From NCBI GenBank assembly GCA_030681645.1, contig JAUXRX010000057.1:372001-436000 (forward strand): a stretch of DNA of 64,000 bases, in the 5' to 3' direction. This stretch comes from Archangium sp. (GTDB lineage Bacteria > Myxococcota > Myxococcia > Myxococcales > Myxococcaceae). The notes under the pieces were generated by a model that saw only the letters and a program-made list of their open reading frames with translations, was not told the DNA's origin and searched no databases. Below, piece after piece: positions 16,325 to 33,136 of the stretch. The position numbers and the translations under genes are program-made. Position 1 is the stretch's first letter, and every line of letters begins with the position of its first letter.

Positions 16325-18118
16325 TCAGGTCGGCTGAAGCTTCATCGCCGCCGCGAGCAGGCCCGCCCGGGCACCCACGAGCAGGTGGAACACGTGGGGA
16401 CTGATGCGCATCACCGCCAGCACGCCAGCGCTCTTCGCGGCGGCCTCGTCGAAGCGGGTGGCGTCGGTCAGCTCCACCCTCAGCCGGGTGAGCGCGATGC
16501 CTTCCACGCCCTTCACGTTCGAGCGCCCGCCCAGGCTCAAGAGCAGCTCGCCCGCAGCGAGTCGATCGGCCGCGTCGACGATCACCCCTCGAGGCGCGAG
16601 TCCGCCGATTGCCCCACCCGGCGGCGAGGGCGCGACCCGGCTCTCGCTCTGCGCCTGCGCGCTCGCCAGATACTCCTGCATCTCGGTCTTCAGGTTCTCA
16701 GACAGCGGCCCGAACACCGCCTGCACCCCGTTGCCCACCGTCATCACCCCCGCCGCCCCCAACTGCTTGAGCCGCGTCGCGTCGACCTTCGACGGATCCT
16801 TCACCGTCACGCGCAACCGGGTCACGCACGCGTCGAGGTTCTCGAGGTTGGCCCGCCCACCGAACGCCAGCACCATCGCGCGCGCCCTGTGGCCAGCCGT
16901 CGTCGGCTCGGTGAAGAGCGGGCTCAGCGCCTCGCCCTCGGGGCCCTCCCGCCCCATCGTCTTCAGGTTGAACCAGCGGATCGCGTAGCGGAACGTGAAG
17001 AAGTACCCCACCCCGTAGAGCGGCCCCAGCACCAGCACCAGCCACCAGCGCTGGGCGTTCGGGTTGAGCACGTTGAAGAGCACGAAGTCGATGCCACCCT
17101 GCGAGAACGTGAAGCCCATGTGGGCGCCGAAGGTGTTCATGACGAACTGCCCCACGCCGGCGAGCAGGGCGTGCAGGAGGTAGAGCGGAGGCGCCACGAA
17201 GAGGAAGGCGAACTCGATGGGCTCGGTGATGCCCGTCACGAAGGAAGTCAGCCCGGCCGAGAGCATGATGCCGCCCACCTGCGCGCGCTTCTCGGGCGCT
17301 GCTTCCCGCCACATCGCGATGGCCGCGGCGGGCAGCCCGAACATCTTGAACAGGAAAGAGCCGCTGAGGATGCCGGCCGTCGGATCACCCGCGAAGTAGC
17401 GCTGAATGTCACCCGTCACCACCTTGCCCGTCGCGTCGGTGAAGGTGCCCACCTCGTAGAAGAACGGCGCGTTCCAGATGTGGTGCAGGCCGAACGGCAC
17501 CAGCAGCCGCTCCACGAAGCCATACAGCGTGGCCGCCAGCCGCGGGTCGCTCACCGCGGCCCAGTGCGAGAACGAGTTGATCGCGCCCTGCACCGGAGGC
17601 CACACCACCGACAACACCAGCCCCAGCGCGATCGCCGCGAGCGCGGTGATGATCGGCACGAAGCGCTTGCCGGCGAAGAAGCCCAGCCAGGTCGGCAGGG
17701 TGATCTTGTAGAATCGGTTGAACATCACCGCCGCGATGCCGCCGGCCAGGATGCCTCCGAAGACGCCGGTCTGCATCGAGGGAATGCCCATCACCGTCAC
17801 CGGCACCACCCCGAACACCTTCGCCATCACCCCCATCGTCCCCAGCAACACCACGTAGCTCACCGTGGCCGCCACCGCCGAGACGCCGTCGTTGTTCGTG
17901 TAGCCGAGCGCCACGGCGATGGCGAAGAGCAGCGCCATGTTCCCGAAGATGACGTCGCCCGACTGGCGCATCAGCAGAGAGACGCTCTCGGGCAGCCATG
18001 AGAAGTTGGCGGCGCCGATGCCCAGCAGCAGCCCGGCGACGGGCAGCACCGCCACCGGCAACATCAGGGCCTTGCCCATCTTCTGCAACGACGCGAACGC
18101 GTTCGAGGTCGAGGCCAT
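16325..18118 (-). CDS. PTS permease, glucose/GlcNAc family, EIIC-EIIB-EIIB
   Basis: 597 residues. The EIIC membrane domain (about 1-390) starts with the family motif [18 protein letters not shown] and carries the substrate-loop motif GITEPIEF (residues 296-303). A first EIIB domain (about 412-490) has the phosphorylated Cys431 in [11 protein letters not shown] second EIIB-like domain (about 522-597) has the same fold motif, but Ala542 replaces the Cys ([10 protein letters not shown]). The protein takes up and phosphorylates a hexose, most likely glucose or N-acetylglucosamine. The phosphate donor should be the EIIA part of the fused protein encoded 4 bases upstream. It is last in the GH3-porin-PTS operon. 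ATG at 18118 begins MASTSNAF. Confidence 0.92.
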
Positions 18119-18122
18119 CGGT

Positions 18123-20711
18123 TCACCCTCCCACGGCGAGTGCGGGCGCCGAGCGGAGCCGGCCTGGTTGCCAGCTCTTGAGCAGCGCGCGCACCTCGGC
18201 AGTGGTGGTCTGCCGCAGGACGTCGGTGGCGAGCTCCTCACACTCCGAGAACGGCCACCGGGCCAGCGCGGCCTTCACCGGCCCCACTGACGACGTGCTC
18301 ACCGACAGCTCGGTCACGCCCAGGCCCACCAGCAACGGCGCGGCCAGCGGGTCTGAGGCAATGCCCCCGCACAGGTGCACCGGGCGCTGGTGCACGCGCG
18401 CGCCGTCGACGGTGGCGGCGATCAGCTTGAGCACCGCGGGGTGCAACGCGTCGGCCCGCGAGGCGAGCTGAGGGTGCCCCCGATCCATCGCCAGGGCGTA
18501 CTGGGTGAGATCGTTGGTGCCGATGGAGAAGAAGTCGACCTCGCGGGCGAGGGCCTCGGCCATCACCACCGCCGACGGCACCTCGATCATGATCCCCACC
18601 TTGACCTGGGCCCGCACGTCGAGGGCGCGCTGCTCTTCGGCCAACATCTGCCGGGCGGCGCGCAGCTCCTCCATGCCGGAGATCATCGGGAACATGATGT
18701 GCAGGCGCGTCAGGCCCGCAGCCGAGAGGATCGCGCGGAGCTGGATGCGGAACAGCTGCGGCTGGTCGAGGCTGACCCGAATGCCACGCAGCCCCAGGAA
18801 CGGGTTCCCCTCGCGGGGCAGCGCCAGGTACGGCAGCGGCTTGTCGCCTCCGACGTCGAGCGTTCGCACCACCAGCGGACGGTCGGGTCCCACCACCTCG
18901 GCGATGGCCCGGTACACGAGGCGCTGCTCGTCCTCGTCGGGCGCGCTGTCGCGGTCGTAGAAGAGGAACTCCGAGCGCAGCAGCCCGATGCCCTCTGCCC
19001 CGCCGGCGATCGCCTCGCGCGCATCGTCGAGGTTCTTGATGTTGGCGACCACCTCGATCCGCCGTCCATCGCGGGTCTGCCCCACGTTCAGGGCCGCGGC
19101 CTGATCGCGCTTCCGCTCTTCGGCCAGCCGCGCGATCTGCTCGTTGAGCTTGCCGCGCGCGACGAGATCACCGGGGGCCGGCGCGAGCTCGAGCCACCCG
19201 GCCGCGCCGTCGAGGACCACCTCGAGGCCCTCGGCGAGCGCGAGCACCCGCTCATCGACGCCCATCACCGCCGGCACGCCCATGCCGCGCGCCAGGATCG
19301 CCACGTGGCTGGTCGCGCTGCCCGTGGTGGTGACCAGGCCCTTGAAGCGGTCCTTCGGGAAGGAAGCGAGCTGCGTGGGCGTGAGCTCCGCCGTGACCAC
19401 GATCGCGTTCTCAGGCAGTTCCCCGAAGCCCGCGGTGTCGCCCGTCAACACCTTGAGCAGCCGCAGCCCCACGTCGCGCACGTCCACCGCGCGCTCACGC
19501 AGCAGCGGCTGATCGAGCTGCTCCAGGTTCGCCGCCTGCGCGCGAAACGCGTCGTTCCAGGCGAAGGCGGCGCTCTTGCCCTGCCACACCACCCCGCGGG
19601 TGCGGGCGAGGATCTCCGGGTCTTCGAGCAGCTCGCGCTGAACGTTCAGAATGTCGGCGCGCGGGCCGCCTTCCTGGGCGGCGAGCGCGGCCAGCTGCGC
19701 CGAAGCGGTGACGATCGCTGCGTCCAGCTTCCGCAGCTCGTCGGGGACCGGCCCGCCCACCTCGGCGAAGCTCGGCGCGGTGCTGCCCAGCCCCACCACC
19801 CGGCCCAGCACCAGGCCCGGTGACGCCGACACGCCCTCGAAGACTCCACTGCGCGAGCTGGCCCGCTTGACCACCGGCACCACCGCCGGAAGGGGCGCCA
19901 TCGACGCTTCACCAGAGCCCTCGCGCAGGGTCTTCGACAGCGCCGCGATGGCCTCGGTGGCGTCGGCACCGCTCGCCTCCACCACCACCGCGTCGCCCTG
20001 GTGCGTGGACAGACCCATCACGCTCACCACCGACTTCAGGTTCGCCGAAGCGGTGCCGCGGAACAGCCGCACGGTGGAGACGAAGTGTTTGGCCTGCTGC
20101 GCCAACACCGCCGCCGGGCGCGCGTGCAGCCCGCTGGGGTTGGGCAGCACGATCGGCGCCGAGCGCACCACCGTGCCCGTGGTCACGCTGGGCGCGGCGG
20201 CGATGGTCACGCCTCGCGCGGCAACGGCCGGACTGGGGCTGCGTGTGGCTCGAGCGCCGGCCAGCTCGAGGGTGAGGAGCACCGAGCTGCCCGCCACCAC
20301 CTCGCGAGCCTTCGTGGGCATCAGCCGCTGACCATCTTTGAGGTTGGTGACCACCACGACCGTGATCAGGCTGCGCGCCGCGCGGCCGACCACGTCGGCA
20401 TCGAAGCGGATGAGCGGCTGACCCGGCACCACCACGTCGCCGAGCTTCGCCAGCGAGGTGAAGCCGTGGCCCTTGAGCGTGACGGTGTCGAGGCCCACGT
20501 GAATCAACACCTCGACGCCCTCGACCGAGGTGATCGCGAGCGCGTGCCGCGCCTGGTGCAGCTGCGAGATGGTGCCGCCGATGGGCGCCAGCACCTGGCT
20601 GGAGGTGGGATCGATCGCGAGGCCGTCGCCGACCAGCAACTGGGCGAAGACCTCGTCGGGCACCTCGGCCAGCGGCACCGCGATTCCCGAGAGCGGAGCG
20701 TGGATCTCCAT
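18123..20711 (-). CDS. PTS phosphotransfer fusion EIIA-HPr-EI
   Basis: 862 residues combining all soluble sugar-PTS steps. The EIIA-Glc-type domain (about 1-150) has His71 in [14 protein letters not shown] and His56. The HPr domain (about 183-268) has His196 in [10 protein letters not shown]. Enzyme I (about 290-840) has His469 in [12 protein letters not shown], the PEP-binding barrel with GLRGIRVSL and IMIEVPSA, and [10 protein letters not shown] near the C-terminus. It moves phosphate from phosphoenolpyruvate to the permease EIIB domains. The architecture matches NagF-type fusions. With it, the locus needs no other general PTS protein. It lies 4 bases before the permease gene and 8 bases after the porin gene. 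Confidence 0.94.
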
Positions 20712-20719
20712 GGGCGGCC

Positions 20720-21940
20720 TCAGTTGAACTCGTACGAGATGCGCAGGCGGAAGGAGTGGACGTAGTTTTCCCAGGTCGACCGGGTGTCGAGATCTTCGAT
20801 GTGCGCGAGCGCAAAGCCATACACGGCCTTGAGGCTCAGCCCCTGAATGGGAAGCCGGTACAGGTACGAGACGAAGGCCTGGTGATGGCGGTTGTTCTCG
20901 CCCTGCAGGTTGAGCTGGTTGGTGTGGTGGTAGCCCAGGCCGATCGACCCGTTCCAGAAGTCGATGTCTGCGAACCCGCCCACCGTGTACTTGTCGAGCG
21001 AACGGTCCGAGTCGACCAGGCCCTGGATGTCGATGGAGTTGACGAAGGTCTGGGCGAAGTTGACCCCGAGCGTCGCGTGCTTGAAGAACGTGTACTGCAG
21101 CCGCGCCGCGTAGCCGTGCGTGGTCGTCTGCACCTTGTCGGCGGAGGTCTGCGGGCGCAGCAGCAGCGTCTCGTAGCCCGCGAGGAACTGCAGGTCCTTC
21201 CAGGTGAAGTGCACCGCGGGCCGCACGCCGTAGTTGTTCTGGTTGTTCTCCTGCCCGTAGACCCCGGCCAGCTCGAACTTGAGGAACTCGAACGGGTAGA
21301 AGTGAATCGCGCCCTGCCCCGACTCGTTGCGGTACCCCCGCGTCAGGTCGAGCCAGTACAGCGAGGGGCCGCCGAGCGCGCCCGCCTCTTCCGCCGTCCA
21401 GAACTCGATGCCCTGGCCGCGGTGGTAGATCTCCCACGCGAGGAAGCGGCCCACCTGCACGTCGAACCAGCGCTTGTGACCGACGCGCACGTACGAGTCG
21501 AGGGTGTGCGGCTCGTACTGTGAGCGGGCGAACTCGTTGACCAGGCCGAGGAACTCCACCTTCGCCGAGGCGTAGAAGTCGCCGAAGGTGCGGGTGAGCC
21601 CCGCGCCGAGCACGAAGCGGCCCTGCAGGTAGCTGACCGATTGATCGTACTGGCCCTGCTGCGCGTTGGTGCGCGCCATGTACCCGGTGTCGCCCCAGAA
21701 GTAGCCGGACAGCACGATGTTCACGCCCAGCACCTGCGGGATCGCGATCTTCTGCGCGTCTTCGGCCGCGTTGGTGCTCTTGGTGCTGGTGGCGCTCTGC
21801 GAGGGCGCTGGCGGCACGAACGTCACCGGACCCGCGTCACTCACGTCGCCCGCGTCAGGAACGCCAGCGTCGGCGTCCTGGGCAGCCGCTGGCGAGGCGA
21901 CCCAGAGCAGCAGGAAGGACAGCGGAAGGTACGCGCGCAT
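20720..21940 (-). CDS. Outer-membrane beta-barrel, probable sugar porin
   Basis: 406 residues. A signal peptide (MRAYLPLSFLLLWVASPAAAQ) is followed by an Asp-Ala-Gly linker and then a long series of alternating amphipathic strands rich in Tyr, Trp and Phe. The C-terminal strand ends FRLRISYEFN, close to the usual outer-membrane barrel signature. I cannot name the porin family. Its position between three secreted glycosidases and the PTS genes argues that it admits the released sugar or oligosaccharide to the periplasm. Ten bases separate it from the GH3 gene upstream. Confidence 0.7.
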   Translation of the reverse strand: MRAYLPLSFLLLWVASPAAAQDADAGVPDAGDVSDAGPVTFVPPAPSQSATSTKSTNAAEDAQKIAIPQVLGVNIVLSGYFWGDTGYMARTNAQQGQYDQSVSYLQGRFVLGAGLTRTFGDFYASAKVEFLGLVNEFARSQYEPHTLDSYVRVGHKRWFDVQVGRFLAWEIYHRGQGIEFWTAEEAGALGGPSLYWLDLTRGYRNESGQGAIHFYPFEFLKFELAGVYGQENNQNNYGVRPAVHFTWKDLQFLAGYETLLLRPQTSADKVQTTTHGYAARLQYTFFKHATLGVNFAQTFVNSIDIQGLVDSDRSLDKYTVGGFADIDFWNGSIGLGYHHTNQLNLQGENNRHHQAFVSYLYRLPIQGLSLKAVYGFALAHIEDLDTRSTWENYVHSFRLRISYEFN

Positions 21941-21950
21941 GGGAATCCCC

Positions 21951-24239
21951 CTACTGAATGGTGAACGAGCCGATCTTCATCTGCGGGTCAGCGGCGTCGG
22001 ACGAAGGTCCCACCAGGAGCTGGTAGGCCATCTTCTCGACCGTCATCGCCTGGGCGGCGACGTCCCAGTACGCGAGGTCTTCGGCCTTCACCGTGAGCGT
22101 CGCGGTGCGGGTGGCGCCGGGCGCGAGGTCTGCGAGCCGCGCGAACGCCTCGAGCTGCTTCTTCGGCCGGCCCCAGCTGTCGGCGACCGCGGTGCCCTCG
22201 AAGCCCACGTAGAGCTGCACCACCTCGCTGCCTGCGCGCGGGCCCGTGTTCTTCACGTCGACCTTCACCTCGAGCGTGCCCGTGGGCCCGATGGCAGCGT
22301 TGGTCACCCGCAGGTTCGAGTACTCGAAGGTGGTGTAGCTCTGGCCGAAGCCGAAGGGGTACTGCGGCGCGATGTTGCGCTTCTCCAGCCAGCGGTAGCC
22401 GTGGAAGTAGTCGTAGGGGAGATCGCCGGTGACCGAGTTGTCGAAGGGCGGCAGATCGCTCTCCTGCACCGGCACGCTCTGCACCATCTTCGCGCTGGGG
22501 TTGGTGTCGCCGAAGAGGATCTCGGCCAGCGCCGTGCCTTCCTTCATGCCCGCGAACCAGGCCATCAACACCGCGTCCGCGCCGGCCACCCAGTCCGAGA
22601 CCAGCACCGCGCCGCCGCTCTTCATCACCACCACCACCTTGAGGTTGGGGTTGCCCGCCTTGAGGGCGACGGCGTTGGCGATGTTGGTGAGGTCGCGCTG
22701 CGGCAGTTGCATGCTGGTGCGATCCTTCCACTCCCCCTCTTCGCCCGAGCTCGAGCGCGCCAGGTCTGCGTAGAAGTACGCGCCGATCACCACCACCACG
22801 TCGGACGCGCCGATGGCCGCCTCGTTGCCCGCCACGTTCTCGTACGAGCGCACCTGCGCCGCCGTGCCGTCCAACGCCGCCTGGATGCCTTCGAAGGGCG
22901 TGATCACCAGCGCGCCGTCGACCACCCGCGCGTCAGAGCTGCCCTTGTCACCCATGTTCTCGCTGTTGGCGAACTTGCCCACCACCGAGACCCGGCTCAC
23001 CGAGGCCTTCGCCAGCGGCAGCACGTCGTCGCTCAGCGCCCGCGTCGGCCCGTTCTTGAGCAGCACGATGCTCTCGCGCGCCGCCTGCAGCGCCAGCGCC
23101 TGCGCCGCGTCGGCCTTGGTGAGGTACGGCCGCCAGTTGAAGTCGTGCGCGAGATCGCCGTAGCGCGTCTTGGAATAGAGGATGCGCAAGACCGCCTCGT
23201 CCACCACGTCGGCCGGCACCTGCCCGTTGTTCACCGCCGTCACCAGCGCGGCGCCGTAGAAGTAGGCGCTGTCGAACTGGCTGGGGAACGCGCCCGACGA
23301 GAAGGGCATCTCGACGTCGAGCCCCGCGGTCGCGGACGGCACCGTCTGGCCCTTGGCGAACCAGTCCGAGATGACGAAGCCCGAGTAGCCCCACTGCTTC
23401 TTGAGGATGTTGCGCACCAGTTCGGTGGAGAACCCGTTGTAGCTGCCGTTGACGCGGTTGTACGACGTCATCACGCAGGCCACGTCGGCCTCCACCGCCT
23501 TCTTGAAGTGCGGCAGGTAGACCTCGCGCAGCGTGCGCTCGTCGATCACCGCGTTCACGTAGATGCGCGTGTCTTCCACGTTGTTGGCCGCGTAGTGCTT
23601 CACGCACGCCTGGATGCGGTAGCTGTCTTCGGCCGGCTCGTCGGGCTCTGCGGGGTCGACCACCTTCGGGTCGAACTCGATGCCCTCGATCAGCGACACG
23701 CCCATCTTCCCCAGCAGGTGGGTGTCTTCGCCGTATGACTCCTGGGCGCGGCCCCAACGCGGGTGCGTCACCTGGTTGATGGTGGGCGCCAGCAGGACGT
23801 GGCGGCCCAGGTAGCGCATCTCGCGCGCCATGGCCTTGCCGATGCGGCGCTCGAGCTCGAGATCCCACGACGACGCCCGCGCGACCGCCGCCGGGAAGAC
23901 GGTGGTGCCGTAGTCGGAGTTGTACCAACGCACCCCGCGCGGCCCGTCCATGTACTTGAAGCCGGGAATGCTGAGCCGGGTGTTGTCTTCCTGGTCGAAG
24001 AAGTTGTTCGGGTTGTACGGCGGCCCGCTCATCTGCTGCACCTTCTCCTCGGTGGACATCGAGCGCAGCAGCTGCAGCGCCGACTTCGCGTCGGCTTCGG
24101 TGCAGTCGATGTGCGCGCGCGTCGAGAGGGTGTCGCACACGGGGCCACCGTCAGCGGTGCCGCCGTCGGTGTCGATGCCTCCGCGCGGGCAGGCGGTGAG
24201 CAGGAGCGCGACGCTGAAGGCCGGGACGATGCGATTCAT
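21951..24239 (-). CDS. GH3 beta-glucosidase-type lipoprotein (BglX-like)
   Basis: 762 residues, lipoprotein with lipobox LTAC (Cys17) and a Gly/Asp linker. The GH3 N-terminal barrel shows PTINQVTHPRWGRAQESYGED, CVKHYAANN and the nucleophile Asp292 in GFVISDW. The second GH3 domain and a C-terminal fibronectin-III-like domain (VKNTGPRAGSEVVQLYVG) follow, as in BglX-type enzymes. It should release terminal beta-linked glucose or related sugars from oligosaccharides at the cell surface. Its ATG overlaps the stop of the preceding GH3 gene (ATGA at 24239-24236), so the two are translationally coupled. Confidence 0.92.
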   Translation of the reverse strand: MNRIVPAFSVALLLTACPRGGIDTDGGTADGGPVCDTLSTRAHIDCTEADAKSALQLLRSMSTEEKVQQMSGPPYNPNNFFDQEDNTRLSIPGFKYMDGPRGVRWYNSDYGTTVFPAAVARASSWDLELERRIGKAMAREMRYLGRHVLLAPTINQVTHPRWGRAQESYGEDTHLLGKMGVSLIEGIEFDPKVVDPAEPDEPAEDSYRIQACVKHYAANNVEDTRIYVNAVIDERTLREVYLPHFKKAVEADVACVMTSYNRVNGSYNGFSTELVRNILKKQWGYSGFVISDWFAKGQTVPSATAGLDVEMPFSSGAFPSQFDSAYFYGAALVTAVNNGQVPADVVDEAVLRILYSKTRYGDLAHDFNWRPYLTKADAAQALALQAARESIVLLKNGPTRALSDDVLPLAKASVSRVSVVGKFANSENMGDKGSSDARVVDGALVITPFEGIQAALDGTAAQVRSYENVAGNEAAIGASDVVVVIGAYFYADLARSSSGEEGEWKDRTSMQLPQRDLTNIANAVALKAGNPNLKVVVVMKSGGAVLVSDWVAGADAVLMAWFAGMKEGTALAEILFGDTNPSAKMVQSVPVQESDLPPFDNSVTGDLPYDYFHGYRWLEKRNIAPQYPFGFGQSYTTFEYSNLRVTNAAIGPTGTLEVKVDVKNTGPRAGSEVVQLYVGFEGTAVADSWGRPKKQLEAFARLADLAPGATRTATLTVKAEDLAYWDVAAQAMTVEKMAYQLLVGPSSDAADPQMKIGSFTIQ

Positions 24240-26569
24240 TCGAACCTCGGGGTGGTCAGGCCGAAGCCCTTGATGAAGGTGGAGTGCGCGCCGTCGCCGG
24301 CCACGTCTTCGTGCTGGGTGGCGGCGGCCGCGTCGGAAGCCGGCACCGCGGTCGGCAACGTGCCCACGCCGCCGGCGATGCCGAAGGCGACGTCGAGGAA
24401 GGTCTTGTCGGCCGAGAGGTTGGTGGCGTTCGTCCCGTTCCAGACCACGTAGAGCCCGGCCGGGTTGAAGGCGAGCACCTCGTCGAGCACCGGCAGGCGG
24501 CCCACGTCGATGCCCACCACCAGCTGCGTCTGGGAGGCCGGCATTCCCGTCCAGGCGGTGATGGCCGCGCGCGCCGTCTGCAACGGCGCCAGCGTTCCAG
24601 CGTTGGCTGCGCCCGCGTAGCTGAGCAGCGGCGTGGGCAGGTTCAGGGCGCCGGAGTCGGGATCTGCCGTGAAGGGCGCGGCGATGCGCACGAACACGTA
24701 GTCCGACAGCGCGATCTTCTGGGCGTCGGTGCTCACCGGCACGCCTCCGATGGAGATCGCGTCGTTGGTGAGCTCGCCGTAGCCCGCGCTCACCGACCGC
24801 ACGTAGTCGAGGTCGAAGTCACCCATGATGAAGAAGCGGCACCCCGCCGACACGTACGGCTCGCCCGGGGGCGCAGGGAGCACCTTGAGCGTGCCGTTGC
24901 CGGCGTTGCCCTTGTCGCTGGTCTGCGTGCCATCACCCAGGCCGTTGAGCCACCCAGCGGGCTTGGGCTTGTTGACGAGCAGCACCATGCCGCGGTTCAT
25001 CGCGTCCAGGCCTGCGCGGTACGAGAGATCGACGTTGGTCGACCGCGGCGCCGCGGCGGCGTCGACGTAGGGGTCTTCGAAGAGCCCCAGCGAGAACACC
25101 AGCGAGAGCGCCCTGCCCGCCGACCCGTCGACCTGCACGTCGCTGAGGGAACCTGAAGTCTTCGCCGCCTGCAGCACGGCGATGTCCGACAGGCCTGCGA
25201 ACTGGTCGACGCCGGCGTTGACCGCCTTCGCCACGCGCGCGGCCGGGGTCAGCGTCTCCACGCCCCACGGCGCGCCCAGCGGCGCGAGCGCTGCGTCGGT
25301 GAGCACCCCGGGCGGCGCGATCACCAGGCCCGTGAAGCTCAGGCGCGTGCGCAGCACGTCGGTCACCAGCTTCGCGTTGAACGAGGCGCCCACCTGCTCG
25401 ATGGTCGTGCCCGACAGCGTGCCGGCCTGGCCCGTCCAGGCGCCGGTCTCGGGAATGGCGTAGCCCGTCATCACGCCTGCCACGCCCTGGCTGATGGCCC
25501 GCTGGAACGGCGCGAGGTGGGCGTCGATGTCGTTGCCCGGGTAGGCGGTGAACTTGCCCTTCGCGAGCCGCGCGTCGAGGCCGCCCTTCGCCGCGCCCGC
25601 GCCGGGGAAGGCGCTGACCACGGTGGCCACCGAGCCCTGGCCCAGCACGTCGCCCTGCATGCCCTTGACGTACGCGGCCACGAAGTTGCCGGCCTGCGTG
25701 CTGTCTTCGCCGAAGGTGAACTGCGCGCCGAACCAGCGCGGGTCCGTGGCGAGATCTGCCGACGGAGAGAGCGCCAGCCGAATGCCGATCGCCAGGTATT
25801 CGCTGGCGGCGATCTTCGCGAACTTCTCCACCAGCGCCGGGTCTCCTGACGCGGCCAGCGCCTGCTCGCTGGGCCACTGCGAGAACCCGGCCGCCTTCAC
25901 CCGGCCGTTGCCCGAGGCGTGCACGGGACGGGTCGAGAGCACCAGGGGAATGCCCAGCGCAGACTCCTCGGCCTTCTCCTGCAGCGCGTTGGCCCAGGTC
26001 GCCCGGGTGAGCACCGGGGTGGTGTTCGCGCTCGTCGTGGCGAACCGCACGTTTCCCGAGATCAGCGCCAGGCTGCCCGCCGACGGCACCGCGGTGGTGT
26101 CGGTGGTGGCGCCGTGGGCCATCAAGCCCAGCTTCTGATCGAGGCTCATCTTCGAGAGCAGATCGGTGGCACGCGCCGCCGGGGTGAGCCGCCAATCTTC
26201 ATACGCGTCGAGCGTGCCGTTGCCGTTGCTGTCCTTGAACTGCAGCGACACCTCGCACATCACCGTGGGGTTGCCCGCTTCGCTGGCGAAGCTGACCACC
26301 TCGGTCAGCAGCGTCTTCTTCTTCGTCTCGAGCGACGGCTGCGCGGCCAGCAACGCGGTCCGCCGCGCCACGTTGGCCGGCTCGCCGCATTCGCCCGTCA
26401 CCCCGCCACCACCGCCCGTCCCTCCGCCGGCGACGCCACCTCCGGCGCCGCCGCCGTCCACGCCGCCACCACCTGCGCCGCCGCCGGTCCCGCCATCCAC
26501 ACCCGGAGTGGGGCTACAGGCCGAAGCCAGCAGCACCACCGCCAACAACTGAGTCAATCGCGTCGTCAT
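24236..26569 (-). CDS. GH3-family lipoprotein without catalytic residues (probable pseudo-enzyme)
   Basis: 777 residues, lipobox LLASAC (Cys18), then a long Gly-rich linker (residues about 23-58). A calcium-type DSNGNGTLDAYEDW motif and the whole GH3 layout align with the next gene upstream. The key residues differ. The nucleophile motif TSDW is IAPP here (Pro419 in place of Asp). The KHFPG substrate motif is SAFPG (Ser319, Ala320). The DSH acid/base motif is DAR (Arg334). The frame is intact and in a coupled operon, so it is more likely a retained non-hydrolytic binding or scaffold protein than decay. This should be tested against close homologues. Confidence 0.85.
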   Translation of the reverse strand: MTTRLTQLLAVVLLASACSPTPGVDGGTGGGAGGGGVDGGGAGGGVAGGGTGGGGGVTGECGEPANVARRTALLAAQPSLETKKKTLLTEVVSFASEAGNPTVMCEVSLQFKDSNGNGTLDAYEDWRLTPAARATDLLSKMSLDQKLGLMAHGATTDTTAVPSAGSLALISGNVRFATTSANTTPVLTRATWANALQEKAEESALGIPLVLSTRPVHASGNGRVKAAGFSQWPSEQALAASGDPALVEKFAKIAASEYLAIGIRLALSPSADLATDPRWFGAQFTFGEDSTQAGNFVAAYVKGMQGDVLGQGSVATVVSAFPGAGAAKGGLDARLAKGKFTAYPGNDIDAHLAPFQRAISQGVAGVMTGYAIPETGAWTGQAGTLSGTTIEQVGASFNAKLVTDVLRTRLSFTGLVIAPPGVLTDAALAPLGAPWGVETLTPAARVAKAVNAGVDQFAGLSDIAVLQAAKTSGSLSDVQVDGSAGRALSLVFSLGLFEDPYVDAAAAPRSTNVDLSYRAGLDAMNRGMVLLVNKPKPAGWLNGLGDGTQTSDKGNAGNGTLKVLPAPPGEPYVSAGCRFFIMGDFDLDYVRSVSAGYGELTNDAISIGGVPVSTDAQKIALSDYVFVRIAAPFTADPDSGALNLPTPLLSYAGAANAGTLAPLQTARAAITAWTGMPASQTQLVVGIDVGRLPVLDEVLAFNPAGLYVVWNGTNATNLSADKTFLDVAFGIAGGVGTLPTAVPASDAAAATQHEDVAGDGAHSTFIKGFGLTTPRFE

Positions 26570-26611: not shown

Positions 26612-29242
26612 TCAGTACGTCGAGCCAGCGCCGATGACGTACGTCGGGCTGGCCGTGTCAGCGGGCATGTCTTCGAACTGCGCATCGACCTCAGCGTCGC
26701 TGCTGGGGATCTCGATGGGCAACCGGCTGCTGCCGTAGACGTAGTTGGCAGGGGTGGTCGGCACGTTCTTGTTGAAGAGCACGTCGAGCACGGCGCGGTC
26801 GAAGGCGCCGAACTCGCCCACCACCACGTCCACACCGCCCAGCCCGTCGGTGCGGATGTTCGCGGCGTCGGAGACGAGCGGGTAGCTGCCCGGCGTGCCT
26901 GGCGTCTCGTTGAGCGACACCAGGCCGTTGACGAAGGGCCTCACGATGCCTGGCCGGTCGAAGTGCACCACCAGCACGATCTTGAGGTTCGGGTTGGTGG
27001 GGGCGATCACCGTGCCCGCGCTGTCGGTGTAGCCGTCGCGCACGCGCAGCAGGTCGATCACCTTGCGCGCGTCCTTGACGGCGGCGGCGTAGGCGTTGTC
27101 AGTCGACGTGCCAGTGAACGGGGCGTCCCACGAGAGGGGCACGCCGCGGTCGAGGCCGCTGTAGGCTCCCTTGCGTGCGCTGATGCGCAGCACCGCGATG
27201 TCCGCCGCGGCAGGGCTGGCGGCCTCGGCGATGGGCAGCACCACGCCGCCATCGGCCAGCGTACCGGCGGCCGCCTTGTAGTCGTAGGCCTGCAGCGCGT
27301 CGTCGTAGATGTCGCCGCCCGCCAGCGAGTCGGTGACGCCGTCGAAGAAGACCTCGACCGTGCCATCACGATCGGCGTCGCACAGGGTGCCGCCGTCGGT
27401 CGCCTTGCGCGCGCCGTCGATGGGCAGGTACCTCGCGCCCGAGTTGGCCAACGTGGTGTGGTCGCGGTTCTTGAGCAGCACGATGGCCTTCTTCTGCGCC
27501 ACGAAGCCGGCGGTGCGGTTCGCGATGGAGCGGATCTCGAGGGCCGACGCGTCAGGGTCGATGTAGGGGTTCTCGAAGATGCCGAGCTTGAAGCTCATCT
27601 CGAGCACCTTCTCCGCCGCCGCGTTGATGTCGGCCTCGGTGATCAGGCCCTGGTCGAAGGCCGCCTGCATGATGGTCACCGAGTCGTTGCCGAGCTGATG
27701 CGAACCCGCGTGGAGGAACTGCGCGGCGCGCTGCGGCTGCGTGAGCGACTCGACGCCCCAGGCGCTGTTGCCCATGGTGCCCCAGTCGCTGGTGACCATG
27801 CCCGAGAAGCCGAGCGCCTCTTTCATGTACGTGGTGATGAGCCCGCGGCTGAAGGCGGCGCCCGCCTGCTCAGGGCTGTAGTCGAACTGGCCCTTGAAGA
27901 TGGAATAGCAGGGCATCACCGCCGCCGGCTGCGCGGTGAACGCGGCCCGGAAGGAGATCTGGTGGTACTCGAAGTAGTTGCCCGGGAAGACGTTGAAGCG
28001 GCCGGGCCGAGAGTGGCTGTCCATGCCGTCCTCGTCCGCGCCGGCGCCGGGGAAGTGCTTCACGGTCGCGGCGATGCCGTTCTTCAGGTCGCCGCCCTTC
28101 TGGAACGCGTCGATGCAGGCGCGCGAGTGGTTGCCCACGGCGTGCGCGTTCTCGCCGAAGGTGTTCTGCACGCGGGCCCAGCGGGGCTCGGTGGCGAGGT
28201 CGGCCATCGGTCCCAGCTGCCAGCGGAAGCCCATGGCCATGAACTCGCGGCGCACCGTGTCTCCGTAGAGCGTGGTGAGCGCGAGGTCGTTGGCGGCGCC
28301 CAGGCCCATCGGGTACGGCCAGGGCGAGACCACCGTGGGCGCGCTCAAGGTCTGCACGCCGGTGGTGGCGTTGGTGGACAAGCCGAAGCCGTGCACCGGG
28401 TCCGCGGTCACGACGAAGGGAATGCCGTGCGGCTCGGACTCGGCCAGCTTCTGCACGTTGTTCAGGTACACGGCGATCTCCCGGCCGCTGCGCGCCCCGA
28501 GGCGGATGAGGGCCTGGCGCAGGTGCAGCGTCTGGATGTTGGCCTTCGCGCTGTCGGTGAGCACGCCGTCGGCCGTGCCGCCGCCGATGCTGGCTGATTC
28601 ACCCAGCAAGCCGACCTTCTCAGGCACGCTCATGCGCGTGACGAGATCCCGCGCGCGGCAGGCCTCTGCCAGGCGCCAGTCCTCGTAGGGGTCGAGGGCG
28701 CCGTTGCCGTTGTTGTCCTTGAACTCCTTGCCCGCGACCGTCAGCTTCGCGCGGGTGTCGACGCCGATCGTCGGCTGCGCCGTGTAGATCTGCGTCAGGC
28801 ACGCGTCCTGCGGCACGCTGCCGCAGATGCCCGACTGGCAGACCTGGCCCTGGGGACAGGTGCCCGTCACGTTGGCGCTGCTGCACATGCTCGCCAGCGC
28901 CACGCAGCTGCCGGCCAGGCAGGTATTGCCGGTGTCGCAGGGGCCGGTGGGGCTGCCCGGACTGCAGAGCTTCGCGGTCAGCACGCAGCCGCCGGCGAAA
29001 CAGCTGGTGCCCGAGCCACAGGCGCCTGCCTCGTTGGTCGGGCTACACAGGGTCGCGGAGGCGACACAGGCCCCGTCCACACAACTGTTGCCAGCCTCAC
29101 ACTTTCCGTTCGGTGCGCCCGGACCACAGTCCTGGATCACCGTCACCGTGACTGTGTTCGTGATGGGGGTTGGTTCAGGACAGCCCGCGAGCAACGCGGC
29201 GGCGGCGAGAATGCTGAGCTTCGAGAGTGGAGCGTGCGTCAT
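26612..29242 (-). CDS. GH3 glycoside hydrolase lipoprotein with Cys-rich N-terminal repeats
   Basis: 876 residues, lipobox LLAGC (Cys21). Residues about 38-140 form Cys-rich repeats with pattern C-x-G-x-C-x2-G-x2-C-x-G-x-C, probably a surface spacer. The catalytic GH3 domain has DNNGNGALDPYEDW, KHFPGAGADEDGMDSH (Lys395, His396, His410) and the nucleophile Asp486 in GMVTSDWG. The KHFPG...DSH pattern puts it in the GH3 group of exo-beta-glucosidases with a NagZ-like loop, so glucoside or N-acetylglucosaminide substrates are both possible. It is the first gene of the operon, with AAGGGAG six bases before the ATG and a sigma-54 promoter just upstream. Confidence 0.9.
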   Translation of the reverse strand: MTHAPLSKLSILAAAALLAGCPEPTPITNTVTVTVIQDCGPGAPNGKCEAGNSCVDGACVASATLCSPTNEAGACGSGTSCFAGGCVLTAKLCSPGSPTGPCDTGNTCLAGSCVALASMCSSANVTGTCPQGQVCQSGICGSVPQDACLTQIYTAQPTIGVDTRAKLTVAGKEFKDNNGNGALDPYEDWRLAEACRARDLVTRMSVPEKVGLLGESASIGGGTADGVLTDSAKANIQTLHLRQALIRLGARSGREIAVYLNNVQKLAESEPHGIPFVVTADPVHGFGLSTNATTGVQTLSAPTVVSPWPYPMGLGAANDLALTTLYGDTVRREFMAMGFRWQLGPMADLATEPRWARVQNTFGENAHAVGNHSRACIDAFQKGGDLKNGIAATVKHFPGAGADEDGMDSHSRPGRFNVFPGNYFEYHQISFRAAFTAQPAAVMPCYSIFKGQFDYSPEQAGAAFSRGLITTYMKEALGFSGMVTSDWGTMGNSAWGVESLTQPQRAAQFLHAGSHQLGNDSVTIMQAAFDQGLITEADINAAAEKVLEMSFKLGIFENPYIDPDASALEIRSIANRTAGFVAQKKAIVLLKNRDHTTLANSGARYLPIDGARKATDGGTLCDADRDGTVEVFFDGVTDSLAGGDIYDDALQAYDYKAAAGTLADGGVVLPIAEAASPAAADIAVLRISARKGAYSGLDRGVPLSWDAPFTGTSTDNAYAAAVKDARKVIDLLRVRDGYTDSAGTVIAPTNPNLKIVLVVHFDRPGIVRPFVNGLVSLNETPGTPGSYPLVSDAANIRTDGLGGVDVVVGEFGAFDRAVLDVLFNKNVPTTPANYVYGSSRLPIEIPSSDAEVDAQFEDMPADTASPTYVIGAGSTY

Positions 29243-29275: not shown

Positions 29276-29291
29276 AGCAACGGACGGGCCA
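29276..29291 (-). promoter_or_regulatory. Sigma-54 (-24/-12) promoter of the GH3-porin-PTS operon
   Basis: Read on the minus strand the site is TGGCCCG-TCCG-TTGCT. It matches the sigma-54 consensus TGGCACG-N4-TTGCW at every position but one, with exact spacing of the GG and GC doublets. Transcription would begin near 29265 and give a 23-base leader holding the AAGGGAG ribosome site (29249-29255) of the first GH3 gene. The adjacent gene encodes an NtrC-type activator, which is what such a promoter needs. Confidence 0.8.
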
Positions 29292-29497: not shown

Positions 29498-30803
<1,306 letters not shown>

Positions 30804-30826
<23 letters not shown>

Positions 30827-33080
30827 CAGCAAGCTCCGGTGCGCGGGTGGGGAGCCCGATGGTGAAGGTCGTGGTGTCGGCCCCGCGCCGGTATGACAGG
30901 CGCCCCCCCTGCACGGCCAGCAGCGCGTGCGAAAGGAAGAGGCCCAGGCCGGTGCCGTTCGGCTTGAGGCTGAAGAAGGGCTCGAAGATCTCGTGCTCGT
31001 GCGGCACGGGCACGCCCGGCCCGCTGTCTTCCACCAGCACCCGCACCTCGGCCGCGTCCGACTCGACGGTCAGCCGCACGGTGCCTCCGTCGGGGCTGGC
31101 GTCGATGGCGTTGGCGATCAGGTTGTCGATGACCCGGGTCAGGGTATCGAGGTTCCCCTGCAGCTTCGCCGCGCCCTCGCGGTGCAGGGTGATGCGCCGA
31201 AGCCCTGCCTGCGCCCTCACCCGCTCGAGCCGCTCGTCGACCAGCGCCTCGAGGGCGAGTTCCTGCCGCGCGCTGGAGTCGCTGCGGGCCACCACCATGA
31301 GCTGGCCCACCAGGCGATCGAGGCGGCCCAGCTCTTCCAGGCACACCGCGACGTCGCCGGTGGACACCTCGTCGAGGCGGCGCCGCGCCAGGCCGTCGAG
31401 GGTGAGCTTGATGCCGGTGATGGGCGTGCGCAGATCGTGCGCCACGCCCGACACCACCGCGCCCAGGCCGGCCAGCCGTTTCCCACGCTCCAGGTGGCGC
31501 TCGAGCACCCGCTCGCGCACCCGCGACTGGGCGAGATCATCCGAGAGCGTGGCGTGGTCGGTGGCGATGCGGGCCAGGGTGGCCGCGGCGGTGAGCTGGG
31601 CCCCGGAGGCCGGCAGGCCGGGCGGCCCGAAGATGCTCGAGCGCAGGTACTGCTGCATGTCGCTCTTGAGCGACTCGGACACGGGGCCGAAGATCGCCTG
31701 GATCCCGGTGCCGACCATCACCACCGCGGTGGCCCCCAGGGCCTTGAGCCGCTCGGGATCGACGTGGGCCGGGTCCTTCACCGAGATGCGCAGGCGGGTG
31801 ACGCAGGCGTCGAGCCCGGTGATGTTGTCCTGGCCCCCAAAGGCGGCCACCAGCAACTCCGAGCGCGTCTCGTCGGTCTCTTCGTCGGTGGCGATGACCA
31901 CCTCGGGCGCGCCCTCGCGGCCCGGTGTGAGGAGGTTGAAGCGGCGGATCGCGAAGGAGAAGACGCCGTAATAGAGGAAGCCGTAGAGCGGGCCGAGCAG
32001 CAGCACCCACCACACGCCCCGGCTGGTGGGGCTCCAGAAGTTGAAGGCCACCAGGTCGATCGCGCCCTGCGAGAAGGTGAAGCCCAGGTGCATGTCGAGC
32101 GAGTTGGCGAGGAACTGGCTGCTGGCGACCAGCGCCGCGTGCACCAGGTAGAGCGGCGGCGCCACGAAGAGGAAGGCGAACTCGATGGGCTCGGTGATGC
32201 CGGTGAGGAACGAGGTGAGCGCGGCCGAGAGCATCACCCCACCCACCTTGATGCGGTTCTCGGGCCTGGCAGCGCGCCAGATGGCGATGGCCGCGCCGGG
32301 CAGGCCGAACATCTTGAAGAGGTAGGCGCCGCCCAGGGTGCCCGCGGTGGGGTCGCCGGCGAAGAAGCGGTTGATGTCACCGTGCACCACGCGGCCGGTG
32401 GCGTCGGTGAAGGAACCGAACTCGAAGAAGAAGGGCACGTTCCAGATGTGGTGGAGCCCGAAGGGAATGAGGAGGCGCTCGACGAAGCCGTAGAGGGTGG
32501 CGGCGGTGCGGGGGTTGCTCACCGCGGCCCAGTGCGAGAGCGCCTGGATGCCGACCTGGAGCTGCGGCCAGAGAAACGAGATGAAGACCCCCAGCGCGAT
32601 CGCCGAGAGCGCGCTCAAGATGGGCACGAGGCGCTTGCCGGCGAAGAAGCCGAGCGCGGCAGGCAGGGCTACCTTGTGGAAGCGCCTGAAGAGGAAGGCG
32701 CTGGTGGCGCCCGCGAGGATGCCGCCGAAGACGCCGGTGTCGATCGAGGCGATGCCCAGCACCGGCGTGGTGGCGACGCCCAGCACCTCGGCCATGCCGC
32801 CCATGGTGGCGAGCATCACCGTGTACGCGATGACGGCGCTGATGGCCGAGGACACGTCGTGGTCCGCGAAGGCCAACGCCACGGCGACGGCGAAGATGAG
32901 CGGCAGGCTGCTGAAGATCACGCCCCCCGAGAGGCGCATCACGGTGCTGACCCCGGCGGGCAGGAAGCCGAAGTGGGCCGAGCCGATGCCCAGCAGCAGC
33001 CCCGCGACTGGCAGCACCGCGACGGGCACCATCAGCGCGCTGCCCGTGGTCTGCAGGAAGGCGAACAGCCGCTTGATCAT
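30804..33080 (-). CDS. PTS permease (EIIC-EIIB) fused to a sensor histidine kinase
   Basis: 758 residues in one uninterrupted frame. Residues 1-390 are a glucose-family EIIC with [18 protein letters not shown] and GITEPIEF (294-301). Residues about 407-480 are EIIB with the phospho-Cys426 in [11 protein letters not shown] helical linker (about 490-540) leads to a HisKA domain with His548 in GVAHDLRTPI, then a HATPase domain: N-box around Asn653 and Asn657, G1 EDSGPGVP (684-690) and G2 NGTGLGL (708-714). All catalytic residues of both halves are present. It should transport a sugar and report its presence, or its own EIIB phosphorylation state, to the regulator encoded next. ATG at 33080 was chosen for the family N-terminus; 33119 is an upstream alternative without support. 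Confidence 0.95.
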
Positions 33081-33136
33081 GCGCGATTGTGGGCGCGGGC
33101 TTCCGATGAAAGCCAGCAAGGACGAGGGATGAAGAG

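Follow-up and report, generated by a model that had tools for sequence, protein, structure and literature searches.

A glucose-family PTS permease and a histidine kinase joined in one protein of Archangium and its relatives, with a putative role in controlling a GH3-PTS operon

We analysed a 64-kb stretch of an Archangium genome (the window; the genome is G000 below) and found that a single minus-strand gene joins a complete glucose-family PTS permease (EIIC-EIIB) to a complete histidine kinase. The fusion is confirmed by the same full-length frame in four further assemblies. Its gene overlaps that of an NtrC-type response regulator, and a sigma-54-type site separates the latter from genes for three glycoside hydrolase family 3 (GH3) proteins and further PTS components. 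Taken together, these features make it probable that the protein is a membrane sensor kinase which uses its PTS permease as the sensor and would control the GH3-PTS genes as an operon via the NtrC-type regulator.

Anatomy and authenticity of the fused gene

The fusion gene (30804..33080, minus strand), as delimited by its open reading frame, Pfam, the PtsG model and alignment, is one frame that begins with an ATG at 33080, has its last stop-codon base at 30804 and encodes 758 amino acids; an alternative upstream start (TTG at 33119) would give 771. Read on the plus strand, 30804-33080 is interrupted by a stop; the sequence-only reading had given no strand. Along the protein follow a glucose-family EIIC (residues 1-390, 31911..33080), an EIIB (residues 408-482, 31635..31859, with Cys426 at 31803-31805), a linker in which no domain was recognised (residues 483-540, 31461..31634), a HisKA domain (residues 541-602, 31275..31460, with His548 at 31437-31439) and a HATPase_c domain (residues 644-745, 30846..31151), all on the minus strand. 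The four Pfam domains all exceed their cut-offs and are nearly full length: PTS_EIIC at residues 13-317 (E 4.5e-69, profile positions 1-317 of 319), PTS_EIIB at 410-441 (E 6.4e-13), HisKA at 541-602 (E 6.9e-11) and HATPase_c at 644-745 (E 7.1e-20). Residues 1-481 match the PtsG model PRK11089 from end to end and narrowly miss the NCBIfam equivalog cut-offs for PtsG (614 bits against 647 for PRK11089, and 578.9 against 591.8 for TIGR02002). The sequence-only reading, which had placed a complete glucose-family EIIC in the same frame as a kinase, is thus borne out by both the Pfam profile and the PtsG model. It had also assigned a phospho-cysteine, Cys426, to the EIIB, in agreement with the alignment of this residue to the cysteine of the DAC-TRLR motif in E. 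coli EIICB and with the invariance of Cys426 and its DACVTRLR surroundings in all five fused copies. The GITEP motif of EIIC is kept as well.

The kinase half is complete, as had been read from the letters alone: the alignment displays an intact His548 and intact N (DNLIANAIDAS), G1 (GPGVP), F and G2 (GTGLGLF) boxes. Its best NCBIfam kinase matches are AtoS and ZraS, with scores far below the cut-offs of those families. The nearest solved relatives of the protein are PtsG for the EIICB part and the ZraS core for the kinase part, both by sequence and by the fold of the AF2 model. After alignment of the five copies, the histidine stands in HDLRT in the three close ones and in HEVRN in the two distant ones, motifs which suggest that the fused kinase is bifunctional and also acts as a phosphatase. 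Sensory domains such as PAS or HAMP were not recognised by Pfam anywhere in the protein, and between residues 442 and 540 it gave no match at E 0.001. Since no other sensory domain was recognised, the EIICB half is the likely sensor.

The region between the two halves had been described as a helical linker. Its columns 498-545 are gap-free in all five fused copies, and the AF2 model does place helices at residues 495-507 and 514-531, but the pLDDT is below 50 there and the heptad test was unconvincing, so that the linker can be called helical only with low confidence. No significant heptad periodicity appeared in the window, L041 or L040 (807, 654 and 787 of 2000 shuffles as high, in the order window, L041, L040), and it was weak in L042 and L043 (106 and 89 of 2000). 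The AF2 model, built from 52 sequences, reached a pLDDT of 70.8 and a pTM of 0.49, with EIIC and EIIB for the most part modelled well, as were parts of the ATPase domain, and the linker and HisKA modelled poorly; it is a monomer model and carries no information on the signalling joint.

The same full-length, stop-free frame is present in G095 (locus labels L011/L041, 91% identity), G011 (L012/L040, 83%), G105 (L042/L137, 65%) and G103 (L043/L145, 64%). By their titles, these four genomes are metagenome-assembled and carry the names uncultured Archangium, Myxococcales bacterium and, in two cases, 'Deltaproteobacteria'. Even the two most distant copies (G105 and G103) carry the same four Pfam domains. 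Against the 91% relative, dN/dS was 0.13 for EIIC, 0.09 for EIIB, 0.20 for the linker, 0.04 for HisKA and 0.32 for HATPase, and over the five segments it ranged from 0.23 to 0.32 against L040 and from 0.25 to 0.56 against L042 and L043; these NG86 figures are rough because third positions are about 95% G+C. All five assemblies are multi-contig (66 to about 1070 contigs), four of them are metagenome-assembled and G000 is marked 6.66% contaminated, all of which could favour an assembly or frame artefact joining two genes. But the same joint recurs in all five assemblies, the other copies being 64-91% identical to that of the window, it is free of stops, and dN/dS is low across it. We therefore rejected the artefact, which is scarcely conceivable given a full-length frame in all five. 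The sequence-only reading had named two findings that would speak against a fusion, namely a break in the frame between the halves and homologues in which the halves are always separate genes; no break occurs in the five assemblies, and the halves stay joined in five genomes. The other kinase matches listed in 96 genomes of the family are only 32-39% identical, and thus no near twin of the kinase half alone was seen in them.

The adjoining regulator, sigma-54-type site and GH3-PTS genes

The response regulator gene (29498..30826, minus strand) directly follows the fusion gene in all five loci and in the window overlaps it by 23 nt. Pfam, NCBIfam and alignment identify a receiver with Asp52, a sigma-54 AAA+ domain with a GSFTGA loop and a Fis-type HTH, which together mark an NtrC-type activator, and its best family matches are NtrC and AtoC. 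The receiver Asp, Walker A and the sigma-54 loop are kept in five of five, the loop reading GSFTGA in the window and GAFTGA in the other four. Sigma-54 itself is matched once in the genome.

Further down the minus strand, after 255 nt, lie GH3a (26612..29242, a GH3 protein with the SDW motif), GH3b (24236..26569, a GH3 protein lacking it), GH3c (21951..24239, SDW present, with C-terminal and Fn3-like domains), a putative porin-like protein (20720..21940), an EIIA(Glc)-HPr-EI fusion (18123..20711) and EIICB2 (16325..18118), a separate glucose-family EIIC-EIIB with a second EIIB-like domain devoid of the cysteine. From GH3a onward the intergenic gaps are 42, -4, 10, 8 and 4 nt, and we infer that the genes from GH3a to EIICB2 form one operon. 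The order of all eight genes, from the fusion to EIICB2, is complete in three of the five fusion loci (G000, G011 and G105), and the contigs of G095 and G103 end inside the set. EIIA(Glc) occurs only twice in the genome, both times within EIIA-HPr-EI fusions adjoining GH3 genes. Hence these two would be the donors if EIIB takes its phosphate from an EIIA of matching type, and one of them is encoded in the operon probably governed by the fused kinase.

Two members of the set deserve separate mention. In the window and seven other distinct copies compared, GH3b lacks the (S/T)DW nucleophile motif and reads AP plus one of P, R, T, W or A at that site, with L043 excepted, whose copy gave no aligned motif; GH3a keeps SDW or ADW. 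GH3b thus appears to be a conserved pseudo-enzyme of the GH3 family that may bind glucan. The porin-like protein gave no Pfam or PDB sequence match, and its gene is present in the related clusters compared, except for the one on contig C25 described below. Elsewhere in the window, a plus-strand open frame (50736-64001) of over 4400 codons reaches the window end.

Between the regulator and GH3a, a search by sequence match revealed a sigma-54-type -24/-12 site, TGGCCCGTCCGTTGCT (29276..29291, minus strand). A match of 11 of 12 positions is found between the regulator and the first GH3 gene in all five fusion loci, its first base lying 49, 46, 51, 201 and 137 nt before the next ATG (window, L040, L041, L042 and L043, respectively; in the window this is the GH3a ATG). 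Shuffles of the five regulator-GH3a stretches reached a score of 11 in 10, 8, 11, 17 and 9 of 3000. The site is the only one of score 11 in the 64-kb window on either strand, but window shuffles give a mean of 1.03, so that the count (1) equals the shuffle expectation and only the placing of the site is informative. Four other sites in the window score 10. Other sites of score 10 or 11 number five in L138, two in L146 (one of them scoring 11) and one in L137, and L139 to L143 have none that reaches 10. Upstream blocks that resemble one another, and could be regulator-binding repeats, were seen by eye in the three closest loci, with none clear in L042 and L043. The overlapping regulator would be the partner of the fused kinase and the sigma-54-type site its target, and the latter is likely a switchable promoter for the genes of the sugar-releasing enzymes.

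Related clusters also occur without the fusion. In G128, a divergent gene of the AraC family (L142 2296-3195, minus strand) stands upstream in place of the fusion system, and neither strand of 17 kb (L142, L139) bears a sigma-54-type site scoring 10 or higher; G131 resembles it within the available contig, which starts inside the cluster. Both had been considered as further fusions because of long open frames over EIICB, but these contain no kinase. A second GH3-EIIA/HPr/EI-EIICB cluster occurs in G000 itself on contig C25 (L144, L141), where neither the kinase half nor the regulator has a match in 28 kb and the porin-like gene is also absent. A weaker sigma-54-type site (score 10) precedes the first GH3 gene of this cluster by 38 nt, and the cluster may answer to the regulator of the fusion locus or to another.

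Distribution and divergence of the fused permease

The fusion was found in 5 of the 195 Myxococcota genomes searched, which belong to four genera in two families, and in none of the 395, 396 and 398 genomes sampled from three other phyla (those of Desulfocurvus, Holophagaceae and Paraburkholderia). EIICB matches at E up to 1e-150 were obtained in 8, 5 and 27 of these genomes, respectively, and none extends past query residue 507; this search scored at most two first-look candidates per genome, and its threshold would miss fusions whose EIIC is more distant. EIICB and a kinase share one frame at no fewer than four loci among 80 of the 398 confirmed loci, the other 76 being unfused, in a contig scan that used BLASTP with the kinase half at 1e-5 and was not exhaustive. 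In a quick EIICB tree of 49 rows (the 5 fused copies, 6 from related clusters and every second of the 76 others; no bootstrap), a branch with an SH-aLRT of 99 sets the five fused EIICBs apart from all other rows, and another (99) does so for the six EIICB2 proteins of the clusters. The simplest reading is a single origin of the fusion. For M. xanthus, by comparison, a single sugar-transporting PTS system has been reported, which belongs to the mannose family (PMC3924187).

At the 203 positions conserved among the unfused relatives, the fused EIICBs show 8-21 departures, and unfused rows left out singly show 0-12. Because of these departures, the fused EIICB may not transport. Ten substitutions are common to all five fused copies, each at a position with 85% or higher conservation among 82 unfused relatives. 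Four of the ten fall in residues 59-100 around TM2-TM3 (P 0.006; P 0.014 for residues 42-107), with the caveat that these regions were chosen post hoc and the rows are related. In V. cholerae, EIIC of the PtsG type is a dimer with TM2-TM3 at its interface (PMC12900739). A tail of at least 60 amino acids follows EIIB in 77 of the 82 unfused relatives; 76 of the 77 tails match the EIIB profile, and 73 have alanine at the would-be cysteine site (EIICB2; L044-L119). In the fused copies, the kinase sits where the unfused relatives have this second EIIB-like tail. The divergence fits, but does not show, that the fused EIICB is a copy specialised for signalling next to a plain EIICB2.

Proposed signalling and its relation to known systems

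In the mechanism that we propose, the PtsG-type EIIC would bind, and perhaps carry, glucose or a similar sugar. The EIIA-HPr-EI protein of the same cluster would charge EIIB at Cys426, and passage of sugar would discharge it. Either the occupancy or the phosphorylation state of EIIC-EIIB would be passed through the linker to the kinase, which would set the phosphorylation of the overlapping NtrC-type regulator by the balance of its kinase and phosphatase activities. Together with sigma-54, the regulator would then drive the operon of three GH3 genes, porin-like gene, EIIA-HPr-EI and second EIICB. The signal could be a glucose-like sugar freed by the GH3 enzymes, or the EIIB state left by sugar uptake; whether sugar turns the system on or off is not readable from sequence. 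For the proposal of the sequence-only reading that kinase activity is set by the flux of sugar, the lack of another recognised sensory domain, the overlapping NtrC-type gene, the sigma-54-type site and the EIIA-HPr-EI gene of the operon are circumstantial support. That histidine kinases are dimers, as is EIIC of the PtsG type, also favours the mechanism proposed here. The more specific form, in which the PTS relay ends in the kinase and the charging and discharging of Cys426 switches it, and with it an operon that makes its own phosphate donors and a sister transporter, is a tentative possibility that we take seriously.

The permease could instead serve as a ligand-binding receptor only, with the fused EIIC binding sugar, EIIB acting as a passive joint and EIICB2 doing the transport. 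The presence of a second, less divergent EIICB in the same cluster is in its favour, as are the ten shared substitutions with their four around TM2-TM3. A passive joint, however, would not need an invariant Cys426 and DACVTRLR in five of five copies, nor the low dN of EIIB (0.037 against the 91% relative, the second slowest of the five segments), and we regard this alternative as somewhat unlikely. CbrA provides the precedent for a kinase that answers a cytoplasmic signal while the permease merely tunes it (PMC7096432; PMC7918813). In CbrA, the transporter domain modulates the kinase but is not required, since its removal left signalling in place, and histidine had no effect in vitro (PMC7096432); this counts against the permease as sensor. 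Yet such a signal could enter CbrA through its PAS domain, which also binds the substrate (PMC7096432), and no PAS domain was found in the fusion protein, which makes a merely tuning permease rather improbable here. If phosphate passed straight from Cys426 of EIIB to the kinase or the regulator, two phosphorelays would be joined chemically, and both phosphoacceptors do lie in one chain. But a kinase with a complete ATP-binding domain needs no other donor, and we know of no precedent for such a transfer, so that it seems very improbable.

Among known regulators in which the state of an EII protein governs transcription, as proposed for the fusion, BglF-BglG and PtsG-Mlc use a separate regulator that is bound or phosphorylated by the EII, whereas the output of the fusion is the fused kinase; the solved EIIB entries 3bp3 and 3bp8 belong with these regulators by their names. 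Kinases of the ZraS/AtoS type have a sensor region of their own and work with NtrC-type regulators; the fusion resembles them in its kinase half and regulator family, but scores far under their family cut-offs and has EIICB as its sensor region. With PtsG (E. coli 8qsr, V. cholerae 9lgt) it has in common GITEP and the phospho-cysteine, the E. coli protein aligning end to end, and it differs in the histidine kinase after EIIB and in the changed conserved positions given above. That transporter-kinase fusions exist, as the earlier reading stated, is correct: the closest known kind is CbrA, in which an SLC5-type transporter of histidine is joined to a kinase (PMC7096432; PMC7918813). CrbS and RpuS are reported to be of the same kind. 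CbrA/CbrB and the other SLC5-STAC kinases (CrbS/MxtR, RpuS) share with the fusion an N-terminal transporter, a kinase, a partner regulator and control of carbon use. They differ from it in that the transporter is an SLC5 symporter and not a PTS EIIC-EIIB (PTS_EIIC being the only domain in the membrane part of the fusion), in that CbrA and MxtR have STAC and PAS domains (PMC7918813), neither of which Pfam found in the fusion, and in that the permease of the fusion carries a phosphorylatable domain of its own. In a full-text search of the open-licence literature, judged by titles and the beginnings of abstracts, no PTS-kinase fusion came up, an absence that is weak evidence.

How transporters signal to kinases remains an open question, and for CbrA the picture is complicated by the substrate-binding PAS domain (PMC7096432). 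In the fusion no further sensory domain was recognised, structures of its permease family are solved, the chemistry of phosphorylation in that family is defined, and a probable regulator and promoter adjoin it, so that the question could be tested here by single-residue changes. If our proposal is true, the protein would link the PTS directly to two-component systems, and it looks like a transporter turned sensor for its own supply line.
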